Assembly (NCBI RefSeq): GCF_900108095.1
Contig: NZ_FNWL01000006.1
Span: 1-64,000, forward strand
Length of the DNA: 64,000 nucleotides
Source: Natronorubrum sediminis
GTDB lineage: Archaea; Halobacteriota; Halobacteria; Halobacteriales; Natrialbaceae
Direction of reading: 5' to 3'
Position numbers and translations under genes: made by a program. This document shows positions 14,625-27,389 of this stretch, piece by piece. The stretch's first letter is position 1. Every line of letters begins with the position of its first letter. Below the pieces are notes generated by a model. The model was not told where the DNA came from, ran no database searches, and saw only the letters and a list, made by a program, of their open reading frames with translations.

Positions 14625-15815
14625 TTACCACGCCTTTCGGAGGACCGCCTCGAGTTCGTCCGCGGTCGGTTCGAGTCCGTCGGGCGCGTTCGTCATCATC
14701 ACGTCGTCTGCGACGTCGGTCGCGATTTCCGACAGGTCCGATTCGGACATGTCGTCGATTTCGCGAAGCCCCGTGGGAAGGTCGAGAGCGTTCCGGACCG
14801 TTTCGACGGCATCGATGACGGCGGCGGCAGTCGCGTCCGGATCGTCGGCCGGACCGACATCGAACCCTTCAGCCAGCAGGTCTCTGCGACCGTAGACGTT
14901 GTCGAAGACGTACCGAAGCGCGTGGGGCGCGATAATGCCGTGAGCGCCACCCTGTTGGATGGCGTACCCTCGAGAAATTCCGTGACCGAACGAGTGAATG
15001 ACCGACGCGGTGACGTTCTCGCCGCCCAAGGCGCCGTATTGGGCCAACACGGTGCCGACGATCGAGTCGTGTAGCGTCTCTTCGCTGCGGTCGCCCTGTC
15101 CGAGGCGCGGTAGCCCTCGACCGAGCAATCGGAGACTCCGAACCGCCGTTCCGTCCGTTATCGGCGTCGCATTATGCGCGTACAACGACTCGACCGCCTT
15201 GTCGAAGCCGTTCATAGCCGACGCACAGAGAATCTCGTGCGGCGTCGTCTCGAAGAGCGCCGGATCGTAACACAGCGCTTCGGGCATCAACCGTCTACCG
15301 ATGAGGGCACCGCGAGTGAACCCCGACTCGCGGGCGGTGATCCCAGCAACGGCGGAGAGGTCCGAACCGGCAAGTGTCGTCGGTACCGCGACGATCGGAA
15401 CTACCTCTTCCTCCGGCATCGGAATCGTTCGCTGACGTTCGAACGTCGATCGAACACCTTCCTCCGACCGGTCGCCGGCCGAAACGACGCTCATCACTTT
15501 CGCGATATCCAAACTGCTTCCACCGCCGAGACTCACGAGCGCGTCGACATCGTCCGCGTTCATCCGATCGACGCCGTCGAAGACGGTCGTCAATCGCTTG
15601 TCCGGAGTCGTCTCGTCGAACACGCCCGCGAGCCTATCGCCGATCCCGTCGACGACCGGATCGATCACCGAGTCGGTCGCACCGACGGTCGATCCGCAGA
15701 CGATCAACGCCCGCTCGGCGCCGATACGCTCGAGTTCGTCCTCAATTCGTGCGACGCTGTTCCGGCCGTAGACGATCGTCCCCGGATCGTACGCGAATCG
15801 GTAGTTAGCTGCCAT
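14625..15815 (-). CDS. Iron-containing alcohol dehydrogenase family protein with altered metal site
   Basis: A 396-residue member of the iron-ADH/dehydroquinate-synthase fold. It has the NAD-binding LVSLGGGSSLDIAK segment near residue 95. In the metal-binding helix the usual M-D-A-L-T-H-A-I-E reads M-N-G-F-D-K-A-V-E, so by my alignment the first Asp and first His ligands are Asn and Lys. The later histidines (VIHSFGHG and GGAHG) are kept. It could oxidise or reduce a hydroxy/keto compound, but the altered site makes metal dependence doubtful. The ATG at 15815 follows AATGTATTTC on the minus strand at TATA distance. Confidence 0.85.
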   Translation of the reverse strand: MAANYRFAYDPGTIVYGRNSVARIEDELERIGAERALIVCGSTVGATDSVIDPVVDGIGDRLAGVFDETTPDKRLTTVFDGVDRMNADDVDALVSLGGGSSLDIAKVMSVVSAGDRSEEGVRSTFERQRTIPMPEEEVVPIVAVPTTLAGSDLSAVAGITARESGFTRGALIGRRLMPEALCYDPALFETTPHEILCASAMNGFDKAVESLYAHNATPITDGTAVRSLRLLGRGLPRLGQGDRSEETLHDSIVGTVLAQYGALGGENVTASVIHSFGHGISRGYAIQQGGAHGIIAPHALRYVFDNVYGRRDLLAEGFDVGPADDPDATAAAVIDAVETVRNALDLPTGLREIDDMSESDLSEIATDVADDVMMTNAPDGLEPTADELEAVLRKAW

Positions 15816-15926
15816 ATGGTAACTCTGCACAGAGTCTGCGAAATACATTTGGATCGGAACGATCGAACGTCTCTCGACGGAGAACGCGGATGCAAAATAG
15901 CGGTGGTCGGTGTGGTCGGATTCCGG

Positions 15927-22096: not shown

Positions 22097-22152
22097 ATCA
22101 CTGAATCATTGAATTAGTGAATCACTGAATTAGTGAATCACTGAATTGGTGA
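22097..22152. repeat. 3.5 copies of a 16-bp near-palindromic tandem repeat
   Basis: Units ATCATTGAATTAGTGA (22105-22120), ATCACTGAATTAGTGA (22121-22136) and ATCACTGAATTGGTGA (22137-22152) follow a half copy at 22097. Each unit has TCACT and AGTGA/GGTGA arms, so the array can fold or bind dimeric proteins. It lies in the AT-rich gap between two convergent operons, with no gene in 21976-22293. A role as bidirectional terminator or binding array is inferred. Confidence 0.7.
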
Positions 22153-22293: not shown

Positions 22294-23262
22294 TCACTCA
22301 TCAAGATACACCGATGCCGACCGGACGGCGGTGACGCCGTCGCCGAGAGCAGTGGTAATCGACTGCGGCGAGGACTGCCGAACGTCGCCAGCGGCGAACA
22401 GTCCGGGAACCGCCGTCTCGAGCGACGGATCGACGACGACGGCGCCGCAGTCGGTCCGCGGTATCCACTCCGGGAGGAACGACGCCTCCGGTTCGACGCC
22501 GTGTTGAACGTACAATCCGCCGACGGTTTCGACGGACTCGGTTCCCTGGGTGCGGTCGAACAGTTCGAGCCGCTCGAGGACGTCGTCACCACTGACGCCC
22601 CTAATCTCGGTGTCAGTCCGTACCTCGATGTCCGGATGGTCGTCGACCCTCTCGCGAAGCGTCTCACCGGCGGACAGTTTCGGCCCCTCCTCGATGATCA
22701 CGACGCGTTCTGCGTGCTCGGTCAAATAGAGCGCGTCGGTCAGCGCCCATTTGTCCCCACCGGAGACGGCGATACGTTCGCCGGCGTACAGCGGTCCGTC
22801 GCACATGGCACAGTTGAAGATACCGCGACCGCGGTACGCATTTGCGTCGGGGACGTCTAGCCGGATCGGCCGACCGCCGGTGGCGACGATGACGGTCCGG
22901 GTGCTGTAGGTACCCGCTGTCGTATCGATCTCGAAGCCGACGCGTTCTCCGTCATCGGCACGATCCGGAGTGCCGTCGTCGTTTGCCGCCTCACCGTCCA
23001 ACTGACGGATGTCGTCGACGGCCGCAAGCTGGACCTGGCCGCCGACATCACGGAGTTGGTCGACCAGCGTCGAGCGGAGTTCGGGACCCGTGGATTCGGA
23101 GCGACCGGGAAGGTTCTCGAGAGTGTGGCGGTTGACGAGTTCACCGCCGACGGACTCCCGCTCGAATAGAACCGCCTCTACCCCGTGGTGGCCCGCTTCG
23201 ATGCCAGCGGCTAACCCTGCCGGCCCCGAGCCAATCACGAGGAGGTCGTAATCGTACACCAT
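22294..23262 (-). CDS. Thioredoxin-reductase-like FAD/NAD(P) oxidoreductase
   Basis: A 322-residue two-domain flavoprotein. The FAD site is VIGSGPAGLAAG (residues about 8-19) and the redox site reads FNCAMCDGP, a C-x2-C as in thioredoxin reductase (CATCDG). The C-terminal FAD segment is VPGLFAAGDVRQ. The NAD(P) site reads AVSGGDKWALTDAL, diverged from the usual GGGxSA. It is the last gene of a tight operon (5 bases after the partner gene), so it probably delivers electrons from NAD(P)H to the CGSC protein rather than to general thioredoxin. That link is inferred from gene order. Confidence 0.88.
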   Translation of the reverse strand: MVYDYDLLVIGSGPAGLAAGIEAGHHGVEAVLFERESVGGELVNRHTLENLPGRSESTGPELRSTLVDQLRDVGGQVQLAAVDDIRQLDGEAANDDGTPDRADDGERVGFEIDTTAGTYSTRTVIVATGGRPIRLDVPDANAYRGRGIFNCAMCDGPLYAGERIAVSGGDKWALTDALYLTEHAERVVIIEEGPKLSAGETLRERVDDHPDIEVRTDTEIRGVSGDDVLERLELFDRTQGTESVETVGGLYVQHGVEPEASFLPEWIPRTDCGAVVVDPSLETAVPGLFAAGDVRQSSPQSITTALGDGVTAVRSASVYLDE

Positions 23263-23267
23263 CTAAG

Positions 23268-24371
23268 CTAGTCGTCGCTCGGCTGTCCCCACTCGCGGTC
23301 GAGTTCGTCGCCGTAGCGCTCGAGGAGCGCCTCCCAGTCGTCGGGCAGTTCGACGCGTTTCGTCGTCGGACCCCCGAGGGTCGGCCCCATCGCGGCGTTG
23401 AACCGACCGCTCCCGCCGGTTACGAACAGTTTGATGCGGTCGGGGTCAGCGAACTGTCGCCGCCAGAGCGACTGCAACCCGTCGTCCCTGGCGCTACCGC
23501 CGCCGAGACCGGACACCTCTTCGGCCCGTCGGAGGGCATTTTCGGAGATGTACTCCTTGATCTCGGCTTTCGTGTAATCCTCGAGTTCTTGAGCGTTGTA
23601 CGGACAGAGCGCGTAGTACACCTCGAGTTGGGCACCTTCGTAGCGCTCGTTGGCCGTCTCGGTCTTGAGCCCGACCATGTGGGGCGGCGTGTTACGGATC
23701 AAGCTCTCGACCATCTCCTGGTCGCCTCGCGGACCCGCTTCGAACTTGTACTGGAGGAAGTTATTGGGTGCCGCGAACGTGATCGTGCTGTCGTCGCGGT
23801 CGTAGCCGCGCTCGACGTGCAGCGGCTCCCAGGGGCTGCGCTCCTCGTTCTCCCCGGCGATCAGGCTGAATTTGAACGGGTTGCCGATGGTTGCCATCTC
23901 CTTCTCACCGGGATGGATGCGGGCGGTGTTTTTGTATGCCAAGCCAAGCGCCCGCCCGACCGTCTGGTTAGTGCGGAAGCCGGGGCCGAACGCGGCGGTG
24001 TCGGAGTTGACCTCCAGCGCTCGCCGAATAGGGCCGTTGACGACGAAGAGGTAGGCCCACGAGCCGGTGCTGACCGACGCTTGGATGGCGTTGGACTTGG
24101 GATCTGCCAGCGCCCGCGCGCCGGCGACTAACAACGGCATGTGGATCGGCAGACAACCGGCCATCACACCGTTGACCGCCAATTTCTCGACCGTGAGGGC
24201 ACCCTCGCGGGTCCCGAGTCGGCCGATCACGTCGTCGCGCGGCAAGTCGGTCCCCTCGAGCATCTTATCGACGCGTTCCTCGGTCGGCGGTACGACCGGC
24301 AGGCCGTCGGTCTTCCCCTTGCGGTAGAACGACGTCGTCACACTCTCGATATCGGTTTTCTGTTGGCTCAT
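23268..24371 (-). CDS. Conserved protein, partner of CGSC (UGSC-like) protein
   Basis: A 367-residue soluble protein of a family that I associate with UGSC (seleno)proteins, but whose biochemistry I do not know. Recognisable blocks are VNGVMAGCLPIHMPLLVAGARAL (one Cys), AYLFVVNGPIRRALEVN, FGPGFRTNQTVGRALGLA and SPWEPLHVERGYD. It lacks membrane segments or a known cofactor motif. It begins 4 bases after the CGSC gene and ends 5 bases before the reductase gene. The fixed spacing argues for a complex. I make no substrate assignment. Confidence 0.7.
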   Translation of the reverse strand: MSQQKTDIESVTTSFYRKGKTDGLPVVPPTEERVDKMLEGTDLPRDDVIGRLGTREGALTVEKLAVNGVMAGCLPIHMPLLVAGARALADPKSNAIQASVSTGSWAYLFVVNGPIRRALEVNSDTAAFGPGFRTNQTVGRALGLAYKNTARIHPGEKEMATIGNPFKFSLIAGENEERSPWEPLHVERGYDRDDSTITFAAPNNFLQYKFEAGPRGDQEMVESLIRNTPPHMVGLKTETANERYEGAQLEVYYALCPYNAQELEDYTKAEIKEYISENALRRAEEVSGLGGGSARDDGLQSLWRRQFADPDRIKLFVTGGSGRFNAAMGPTLGGPTTKRVELPDDWEALLERYGDELDREWGQPSDD

Positions 24372-24375
24372 GGGT

Positions 24376-24975
24376 CTACCGATCCCCCCCAGCGACGACC
24401 GTCTTGTCAGACTCTGCGTCCTCGGTGGCCTGCTCCTCGGGTGACGGCGGCCGCGTCACTTCTTCGAGAATGTTGTCGAGGACATCGGCGGTAATCTGCT
24501 CGCGGAAGCGATCACGGTCGACTACTTCCGAGATCGCCGGCAACGTGTAGTAGCGCATATCACGGCCGAAGTCGCGAGCGTTGGTGTCCCAGTCGAGCGC
24601 GAAGCCCTCGTCCACAATGCCGACGCCCGGCGTACCGCTTCGTTCGACCGCCTCGATGCCGTAAACGAGATACTTCGTACAGGAACCACAGTCGCCGATA
24701 GCGCCGATGCAGGCGTCGAGATTCTCGTCGGCCCACGCCTCGATGTCCGCCATCTCCTCTTCGTTCTTAATGCGGTTGAGATGGGCGACGGCGTACCGAT
24801 CGACCGTTACGGTTGGATACGCTTCCTCGAGGCGCTCCTCGACGACGTCTAGCAACGGCTCCGCCGCCGGCTTCCCGTTGTCGAACAACCCGATACGCGT
24901 CCCCTCAATCTGCTCGAGTCGCGGGGCGATGGGTTTTCGCTCTGCCTCTTCGGAGTCAGCCACAGGGTCGTACAT
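24376..24975 (-). CDS. UGSC-family protein with Cys in place of selenocysteine
   Basis: A 199-residue protein with the motif GDCGSCTKYLVYG near residue 90. This is C-G-S-C where family members in some bacteria read U-G-S-C (selenocysteine). GLFDNGKPAAEPLL near the N-terminus and GTPGVGIVDEGF after the motif are also typical. The pair of cysteines is probably redox active. The ATG at 24975 was chosen over the upstream TTG at 24999 because an AT-rich TATA-like stretch (about 24995-25010) lies 27 bases before it. It is the first gene of the operon with the partner and the thioredoxin-reductase-like protein. Confidence 0.7.
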   Translation of the reverse strand: MYDPVADSEEAERKPIAPRLEQIEGTRIGLFDNGKPAAEPLLDVVEERLEEAYPTVTVDRYAVAHLNRIKNEEEMADIEAWADENLDACIGAIGDCGSCTKYLVYGIEAVERSGTPGVGIVDEGFALDWDTNARDFGRDMRYYTLPAISEVVDRDRFREQITADVLDNILEEVTRPPSPEEQATEDAESDKTVVAGGDR

Positions 24976-25266: not shown

Positions 25267-25908
25267 CTATGTCGCTTCGCGACAGTACTGCGCAAAGTTC
25301 TCGAGTACCCGCGTCGCGTTCGAGTCGTCGAACGAGTGGGAGCCGTCGGCCCAATCGCTCGGTTCATCGCGGACGCGCTCGGTGAACTCGGGGTGGAACT
25401 GGACGGTCCAGATCGGCGCATCCGCGTGTCGGCTGCAGAAATGCGCGTTGTAGTCGGTCCGCGCGGTGGACGCTAGTGCGTCGGCTGGATCGACGACGAA
25501 GTCGGCGTGTAGAACCGGAACGATGGGATCGAGATCGGCGAGTGCGAGGTCGTCCCTGTCGGTGGACTCGAGTTCGACGAACGTGGCGCGGCGTTCGTCC
25601 CGTTCGACGACGCCGCCGAGTGCTTGATGGATCAGCTGGTGACCGAAGCAGACGCCGAGCAAGGGAACCGTTTCGTCGCGACAGCGGCGGACGAGGGTTT
25701 CGGCCGGTTCGATCCAATCAGCGTGCTCGTCGTCGTAAACGCTCGCGGTACTGCCGCTCAGAACGACGCCGTCGAACGATTCCAGGTCTGGAAGGATCGG
25801 CTCGTCGACGAACACCCGATACTCCGTCTCCCCTGGAGTCAGGCGAGCAATCTCTGGAGCGAGATAGCGGTAATCGGGTTCCACTTCCAGATCGAGGACG
25901 AGTATCAT
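25267..25908 (-). CDS. Class I glutamine amidotransferase
   Basis: A 213-residue GATase1 domain. The nucleophile elbow is LLGVCFGHQLIHQALGG (Cys near residue 87), and the His-Glu pair is in VQFHPEFT (near residue 172). It would release ammonia from glutamine or hydrolyse a gamma-glutamyl bond. It is a stand-alone domain like GMP-synthase subunit A or PuuD-type gamma-glutamyl hydrolases. It lies next to a glutamine-synthetase-like ligase in the same orientation, as puuD and puuA do in polyamine breakdown. TATA-like GTATAAATTC on the minus strand near 26004 may give it its own promoter. Confidence 0.88.
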   Translation of the reverse strand: MILVLDLEVEPDYRYLAPEIARLTPGETEYRVFVDEPILPDLESFDGVVLSGSTASVYDDEHADWIEPAETLVRRCRDETVPLLGVCFGHQLIHQALGGVVERDERRATFVELESTDRDDLALADLDPIVPVLHADFVVDPADALASTARTDYNAHFCSRHADAPIWTVQFHPEFTERVRDEPSDWADGSHSFDDSNATRVLENFAQYCREAT

Positions 25909-26021
25909 TGGCCCATACCTAGTGTGCGTCCGTAATGACTCTGACGAGGAGCGACATGGTAGGGAGGGTGCAGACGGATACGGAAAGAAGAGAACATACG
26001 TGAATTTATACTACTTCGACG

Positions 26022-27389
26022 TCATAGAGTCTTTACGTACTGTTCTCGTTCCCAGTCGGTCACGGTGTCGCGGAATGACTCGAGTTCTGCTCGCTTGGCG
26101 GCGACGAACGCCTGGATCAACTCGTCGCCGAGGCGGGCTGTCAGCGTGTCGTCGGACTCGAGTGCGGCGAGTGCGAATTCGGGCGACTGCGGCAGCGGCG
26201 GCCAGTCGCCTGCAGGGTCGCCGGAAACAGGGGGCTCGGGCTCGAGTTCGCGTTCGATTCCGTCGAGGCCGGCCGCGATGGTGGCCGCGATGACGATGTA
26301 GGGGTTAGCATCTGCACTCGGGATTCGGTTCTCGATGCGAGTCGTGCCCGAGGGGATTCGGACCCCGGTCATGCGGTTGTCATATCCCCAGGAGGCGGTG
26401 TACGGTGCGAACGAACCTCGCTCGTAGCGCTTGAAGCCGTTGATAGTAGGGGTTCCGAGGGCCGCAAGAGCTTCTGCGTGATCGACGATACCGGCCACGA
26501 ACTGGCGGCCGGTCTGTGAGAGGGAGCCCGAATCGTCGTTATTGGCGACCACATCTGCGTCGTCGGCTTCGAATACGTTCTCACCGTCTCGAAACGCCCC
26601 GACGTGCAGATGATAGCCGCTTCCCGCTCGCCCGCCGAACGGCTTGGCCATGAACGTCGCCCAGAGATCGTGACACCGACCGGTTTGCTTGACGAGTCGC
26701 TTAAAGTCAAACGTGTCGTCGGCCTGTCCCATCGGAGTGCCGTACTCGAACAATACTTCGAGCTGGCCGGCCCCGTGTTCGTGCATGAGCGACGTCACCG
26801 AGGCGCCGTATTCGTCGCTCCAAGCGGCCAGATCGTTGTAGTAGGCCGAGACCTCCTCAGTCGCCCAGGAGATGCACTCGTGTTTGTGGGAGGTGACCGG
26901 CTCGTACCCTTCCTCCGTTTCGGAGAGCAGGTAGAACTCGAGTTCACTCCCGACGGTGAACTCGAACTCGTCGGGGGTGGACTCGAGTACCCGCGCGAGT
27001 GCGGTCCGCGGGGAAGCGTCGACGGGTTCGTCGCCGTCGACGACATCACAGAGAACGCGTGCGGCGTCGTCGCGCCAGGGGAGGCGACGCGCCGTGTGCG
27101 GGATCGGACGAAGTGTCCCGTCACCGTAGTCGATTTCCTCGCCGACACCGGAGCCCTCGGGGACGGCGTTGCGCGGCGTCTGTGCGAGAAGCAAGAGATT
27201 GACCGAAAACCCGGACGCCCACGAGTCGAGGAAGTAGTCGGTGCGCAGCTGTTTGGTCCGCGAGATGCCGTTGATGTCGGAAAATTCGGCGAAGACGTGG
27301 TCGATATCGGGGTCCGAAAGCAGGTCGAGCATCCGTTCGACGTGGTCGTCCTCGTGCTCACGTGGAGCGGGTCTACTCGCGTCAGTCAT
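26022..27389 (-). CDS. Glutamine synthetase family protein (gamma-glutamyl ligase-like)
   Basis: A 455-residue GS-fold ligase. The metal/ATP motifs are GSELEFYLL, MHEHGAGQLEVLFEYG and GSGYHLHVGAF; the substrate loop reads NGFKRYERGSFAPY and the C-terminal block RIENRIPSADANPYI. These diverge from true GlnA (NSYKRL; RIEVRSPDPSANPYL). It may instead ligate glutamate to an amine, as PuuA/GlnA3-type enzymes do. The adjacent class I amidotransferase supports a gamma-glutamylation route. The start MTDASRPAP overlaps the end of an upstream 38-codon ORF. The C-terminal Tyr used for adenylylation in bacterial GlnA is not evident. Confidence 0.9.
   Translation of the reverse strand: MTDASRPAPREHEDDHVERMLDLLSDPDIDHVFAEFSDINGISRTKQLRTDYFLDSWASGFSVNLLLLAQTPRNAVPEGSGVGEEIDYGDGTLRPIPHTARRLPWRDDAARVLCDVVDGDEPVDASPRTALARVLESTPDEFEFTVGSELEFYLLSETEEGYEPVTSHKHECISWATEEVSAYYNDLAAWSDEYGASVTSLMHEHGAGQLEVLFEYGTPMGQADDTFDFKRLVKQTGRCHDLWATFMAKPFGGRAGSGYHLHVGAFRDGENVFEADDADVVANNDDSGSLSQTGRQFVAGIVDHAEALAALGTPTINGFKRYERGSFAPYTASWGYDNRMTGVRIPSGTTRIENRIPSADANPYIVIAATIAAGLDGIERELEPEPPVSGDPAGDWPPLPQSPEFALAALESDDTLTARLGDELIQAFVAAKRAELESFRDTVTDWEREQYVKTL

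Follow-up and report, generated by a model that had tools for sequence, protein, structure and literature searches.

A cysteine-form UGSC protein, its partner P2 and a thioredoxin-reductase-like flavoprotein form a conserved gene unit in haloarchaea

Among the selenoproteins of aquatic metagenomes, the UGSC proteins rank with the most abundant. The family is already known from the work of Zhang and Gladyshev in 2008, who guessed at a thioredoxin-like fold and reported the fusion of UGSC to a conserved domain termed 'Unknown_1' (PMC2398784). Among the closest described enzymes are GrdB and PrdB, component B of the glycine, betaine, sarcosine and D-proline reductases (PF07355). In these proteins the selenocysteine attacks a substrate that has been activated by a partner subunit, and the oxidised Sec/Cys centre is then reduced by a thiol system (PMC13188914); in glycine reductase the electrons are supplied by a system of the thioredoxin reductase type. 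Among thioredoxin reductases themselves, HRRD is the motif that confers selectivity for NADPH, and enzymes that lack it draw on NADH, on ferredoxin, on F420 or on unknown donors (PMC5627308).

The window analyzed here, a stretch of 64,000 nucleotides from Natronorubrum sediminis, contains three minus-strand open reading frames at positions 22294-24975. These encode a UGSC-family protein in its cysteine form (24376..24975, 199 aa, ATG at 24975), a protein designated P2 (23268..24371, 367 aa) and a thioredoxin-reductase-like flavoprotein (22294..23262, 322 aa), and their exact coordinates agree with the gaps of 4 and 5 bases given in the original prediction. The orthologues begin at the same ATG. 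A sigma-70 promoter scan, using a model ill-suited to archaea, returned no match. Immediately downstream of the flavoprotein gene, at 22097-22152, lies a tandem repeat of 3.2 copies of the 16-base unit TGAATCACTGAATTAG.

The first of the three proteins belongs to the same family as the UGSC selenoprotein of Zhang and Gladyshev, with cysteine here in place of selenocysteine. It matches PF24696 at 97.7 bits (cut-off 25; E=1.1e-27) and carries the [U/C]-G-S-C motif as CGSC at residues 96-99, encoded at 24679..24690. Its score against the equivalog model NF041046 (74.1 bits) is under the cut-off of 125, and in Haloterrigena the protein is labelled 'hypothetical protein'. The expectation that CGSC stands where relatives have selenocysteine was borne out among 100 family members: with Sec called from an in-frame TGA together with family precedent, 82 have Sec, 15 Cys, 2 Met and 1 Ala at the first motif position, and 98 have Cys and 2 Ser at the fourth.

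Some UGSC members match the GrdB, PrdB, GrdF and GrdH models weakly. When UGSC was compared by hhalign with GrdB and PrdB profiles built from the same genomes, reading TGA through as Sec, the match was 93.8% for GrdB, 90.5% for PrdB and 96.0% for both together (E 4.6e-9), all from small alignments and with the Sec positions aligned; 11 control families of unrelated neighbours reached at most 2.8%. This agreement places UGSC, with high probability, in the GrdB/PrdB selenoprotein-B superfamily. The homologous region is a C-terminal domain in which a buried strand precedes [U/C]-G-[S/T]-[C/S], and GrdB and PrdB, like UGSC, each have a partner subunit. However, the UGSC-GrdB alignment covers only the C-terminal ~95 columns; the N-terminal domain of GrdB is missing from the 199-residue protein, and a Pfam scan found no match to PF07355. 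In an AlphaFold model of a natural UGSC-P2 fusion (pLDDT 91.5, pTM 0.92), the UGSC domain (AF2, pLDDT mostly >90) consists of successive strand/helix units in which a helix directly follows the Sec/Cys; the PDB structures that match it best are flavodoxin-like, for example lumazine synthase (TMt 0.56). A thioredoxin fold for UGSC was not supported, the model being Rossmann-like alpha/beta. From both homology and motif, Cys96 and Cys99 should do the same job as the Sec/Cys centre of GrdB and PrdB.

The second gene had been assigned to a poorly described family; instead, P2 represents a new family absent from Pfam, NCBIfam and the sequences of the PDB, and a structural search of the PDB using its own model (pLDDT 89.5) found nothing below E 0.001. 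The motif VMAGC[LK]Px[YH] includes Cys73 (codon 24153..24155), which is Cys in 112 of 115 homologues; two of the three P2 proteins that lack it are fused to Sec-type UGSC. Homology of P2 to GrdE/PrdA was rejected, given an hhalign probability of 0.1% against the GrdE profile and no Pfam hit (PF09338, pyruvoyl pro-protein), and there is therefore no ground for presuming that P2 shares their pyruvoyl chemistry. The 'Unknown_1' domain reported in PMC2398784 may be P2.

The reading preferred here, which is given about an even chance (roughly 0.5), is that the trio constitutes a two-subunit reductive enzyme together with its private flavoprotein reductase. More specifically, the nucleophile of catalysis would belong to the UGSC protein, as Cys96 in this case and as Sec in the majority of relatives, and would sit where a helix of its Rossmann-like domain begins, the position that it also occupies in GrdB and PrdB. 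P2 would bind and activate a small organic substrate and set it against this nucleophile; a bond of the substrate would be cleaved reductively, leaving Cys96 and Cys99 as a disulfide, or as a selenenylsulfide in the Sec forms. The CAMC dithiol of the flavoprotein would then re-reduce the Cys96/Cys99 pair directly. The gene unit, the co-inheritance, the matching copy numbers and fusions of the pair, the GrdB/PrdB-type motif and the loss of the NADPH signature are shown here and support this reading; counting against it are the P2 proteins without Cys73, the lack of any sequence relation of P2 to GrdE/PrdA, the fusions devoid of UGSC cysteines and the many Sec-type pairs with no thioredoxin reductase close by.

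The order and strand of UGSC, P2 and flavoprotein are kept in six genomes of six haloarchaeal genera (G000, G028, G206, G431, G036 and G020), such that the trio is conserved well outside the strain in which it was predicted and the first refuting condition of the original prediction, a trio confined to this strain, does not hold. Across the ~15-20 kb compared around each of these six copies the trio itself is common and the flanks are almost wholly different, and this recurrence amid unrelated flanks indicates that the trio is a functional unit; co-occurrence of the three genes is far above chance. The same trio is located on plasmid pHTUR01 of Haloterrigena turkmenica, which belongs to the same family as the host of the window. 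Two exceptions were found in the flanks. A gene for an Fe-containing alcohol dehydrogenase, at 14625-15848 in the window, has a 76% identical copy in G020, 0.9 kb upstream of the trio there. A glutamine amidotransferase, which in the window adjoins a glutamine-synthetase-like gene (25267-27389 for the two together) in a manner reminiscent of gamma-glutamyl amine degradation, is 48% identical and on the opposite strand in G028. A substrate clue was sought in conserved flanks of the six trio genomes and none was found, the flanks differing in all six. Of 391 genomes of the class, 22 (from 15 of 86 genera) encode P2, and every congener searched lacks it; its distribution is thus patchy and mobile. 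The trees of UGSC, P2 and flavoprotein have a deep split in common, and those of UGSC and flavoprotein branch identically. At E<1e-30 each of the six trio genomes yields the flavoprotein, and none of three trio-less congeners does. Other haloarchaeal arrangements include P2'-UGSC-P2 and UGSC-P2-DUF6282, and in some of these a related flavoprotein lies close by.

When GTDB genomes were scanned, at least 584 relatives of P2 emerged. In the best-scoring 80 of these and the plasmid hits, which are not a random sample, UGSC adjoins P2 in nearly all loci and in either gene order, and the two are often fused as one reading frame whose only TGA is that of the motif. Copy numbers of P2 and UGSC are identical in 22 of 32 genomes (Spearman 0.99). 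A thioredoxin reductase is not found near most Sec-type pairs. The original prediction of a three-gene unit was correct for the order kept in six genera, but what is universal, and forms the core outside haloarchaea, is UGSC with P2; the flavoprotein has been added in particular lineages, mostly haloarchaea and a few bacteria. One 5 Mb groundwater Chloroflexi assembly (G062) contains at least 66 P2 and at least 77 UGSC genes, these counts being lower bounds from a metagenome bin. Most of the genes listed from its loci (L019, L030, L032, L033, L037, L051 and L061) have an in-frame TGA, and its selenoprotein set may be among the largest of any prokaryote. On plasmid pFER4 of Paracoccus ferrooxidans (L012:6432-8071), a UGSC gene with TGA adjoins P2 and selB lies ~3 kb downstream; the two halves of this locus are annotated in the record as separate hypothetical proteins. 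The pair is also present on contigs titled Bordetella parapertussis (L079) and Methanobacteriaceae (L022), which are metagenome bins and probably misassigned.

Two natural UGSC::P2 fusions retain the Cys73 of P2 but are devoid of the UGSC cysteines, having MGTS at the motif; some relatives therefore cannot use the proposed redox step. These fusions are encoded on Sporomusa and Vibrio plasmids (L011:6323-8047 and L015:6368-8053), near aconitase X/DUF126 genes. Their existence and location argue for a different explanation, that P2 catalyzes a non-redox reaction on organic acids, of the lyase, hydratase or isomerase type, and that UGSC is mainly structural or regulatory, its cysteines forming a redox switch kept reduced by the flavoprotein. 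The weak Foldseek hits of P2, to class I fumarases and Toblerone-fold hydrolases, point in the same direction; however, at TM <0.25 and probability <=0.51 they are sub-threshold and not real matches, and membership of P2 in either group was rejected. P2 also has no three-Cys iron-sulfur pattern, and the prevalence of Sec at the first motif position and of Cys at the fourth suits catalysis better than a switch. A non-redox P2 is considered unlikely on this evidence.

Genes near the bacterial pairs include those for taking up and catabolizing organic acids and peptides. In an approximate tally, with neighbouring ORFs called by length only, TctC receptors make up 10 of 91 genes, followed by SBP_bac_5 (6), DUF6282 (4) and SelB (2), and SDRs are also present. 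These neighbours point to the catabolism of imported organic compounds generally and not to one substrate. In three loci from Chloroflexi/Dehalococcoidia (L024:9157-15226, L042 and L043), P2-UGSC is followed by a NuoE/NuoF-like pair, and L024 and L043 also have an NAD-linked formate dehydrogenase alpha-like subunit. An FdsGBA-like formate dehydrogenase was rejected as a pathway link, because these three pairs are too few and too related.

Nothing in the neighbourhoods pointed to the mercury, arsenic or halogenated substrates that had been suggested for the trio, and no mercury, arsenic or other metal genes were noticed near its copies or in the neighbour tally. This weighs against a thiol stress or detoxification module in which UGSC would be a peroxidase or a reductase of electrophiles or metalloids and P2 an accessory. 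The trio does travel between genomes as a self-contained unit, as detoxification cassettes do, and its donor is of the thioredoxin reductase type. However, the model shows no thioredoxin fold for UGSC, the bacterial copies lie beside solute receptors and catabolic genes, and the 66 or more paralogues in a single genome suggest substrate diversity. A detoxification role thus appears quite improbable.

The third protein matches PF07992 (5.8e-34) and has the CAMC dithiol (CA[MKT]CDGPLY; 22801..22812) within an FAD/NAD(P) two-domain fold, in agreement with the predicted reductase with a CAMCDGP site and an unusual nucleotide loop. Like TrxB (TIGR01292) it has the FAD fold, the CxxC in CAxCDG and a whole-length match, but at 231.6 bits it is under the TIGR01292 cut-off of 343.45; two other thioredoxin reductases of the same genome, which have the standard motifs, are also under that cut-off (333 and 324). 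Because the host already has these two, the trio flavoprotein is an extra. It differs from TrxB in several further respects and is obligately tied to the pair. The GxGxxA loop is degenerate (SGGDKWA at 22744..22764, where GGGNTA is canonical), with GGDKWA instead of the signature GGGNxA, and all six trio flavoproteins have lost the third Gly. VVIIEEG (22684..22704) replaces the canonical HRRD of HRRxxxRA, such that the NADPH 2'-phosphate site is lost and the end of strand 2 is acidic (motif meaning from PMC5627308), and the flavin segment reads DVRQSSP instead of D..YRQAVTSAG. The trio flavoproteins form their own clade, and a bacterial member of this clade (L021) adjoins two fused Sec-type pairs. 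The NAD(P)H-independent thioredoxin reductase DvTRi of Desulfovibrio vulgaris is likewise non-canonical and devoid of HRRD; in contrast to the trio flavoprotein, it has TQ/NGK at the place of IEEG, reduces thioredoxin and is encoded by an isolated gene (PMC5627308).

Of the original prediction, a real three-gene redox unit is upheld, but not its NAD(P)H source. NADPH was rejected as donor, and the replacement of HRRD by IEEG together with the loss of the third Gly indicates NADH or something else; NADH would be compatible with the conserved Glu that closes strand 2, yet the broken glycine motif weakens this choice. That the flavoprotein is an ordinary reductase of general thioredoxins, merely co-transcribed with an unrelated UGSC-P2 enzyme, is very unlikely, since, although Roseovarius and Variovorax pairs have thioredoxin reductases nearby with canonical HRRD and YRQAVTSAG, the trio flavoprotein has neither motif, falls under the family cut-off, occurs only with the trio (6/6 trio genomes, 0/3 trio-less congeners) and belongs to a cell with two standard-motif enzymes.

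The reading of the trio as a reductive enzyme with its own reductase may extend to the family as a whole. In this broader and more tentative proposal, against which the odds are somewhat tilted, UGSC-P2 would be a large unrecognized class of Sec/Cys reductases that combines a GrdB-like nucleophile with a substrate subunit of new fold, is present as tens of paralogues per genome in uncultivated bacteria and opens recalcitrant organics; haloarchaea would have switched to cysteine and a private NADPH-independent flavoprotein. No report of the obligate partner, of the link to GrdB/PrdB or of the dedicated reductase was found in open-access papers. Linking UGSC, until now an orphan family with no assigned function, partner or relatives, to P2, to the GrdB/PrdB reductases and, in haloarchaea, to a dedicated reductase makes it a testable enzyme, and because the cysteine trio can be produced and assayed without selenocysteine, it gives practical access to the UGSC-P2 class as a whole.
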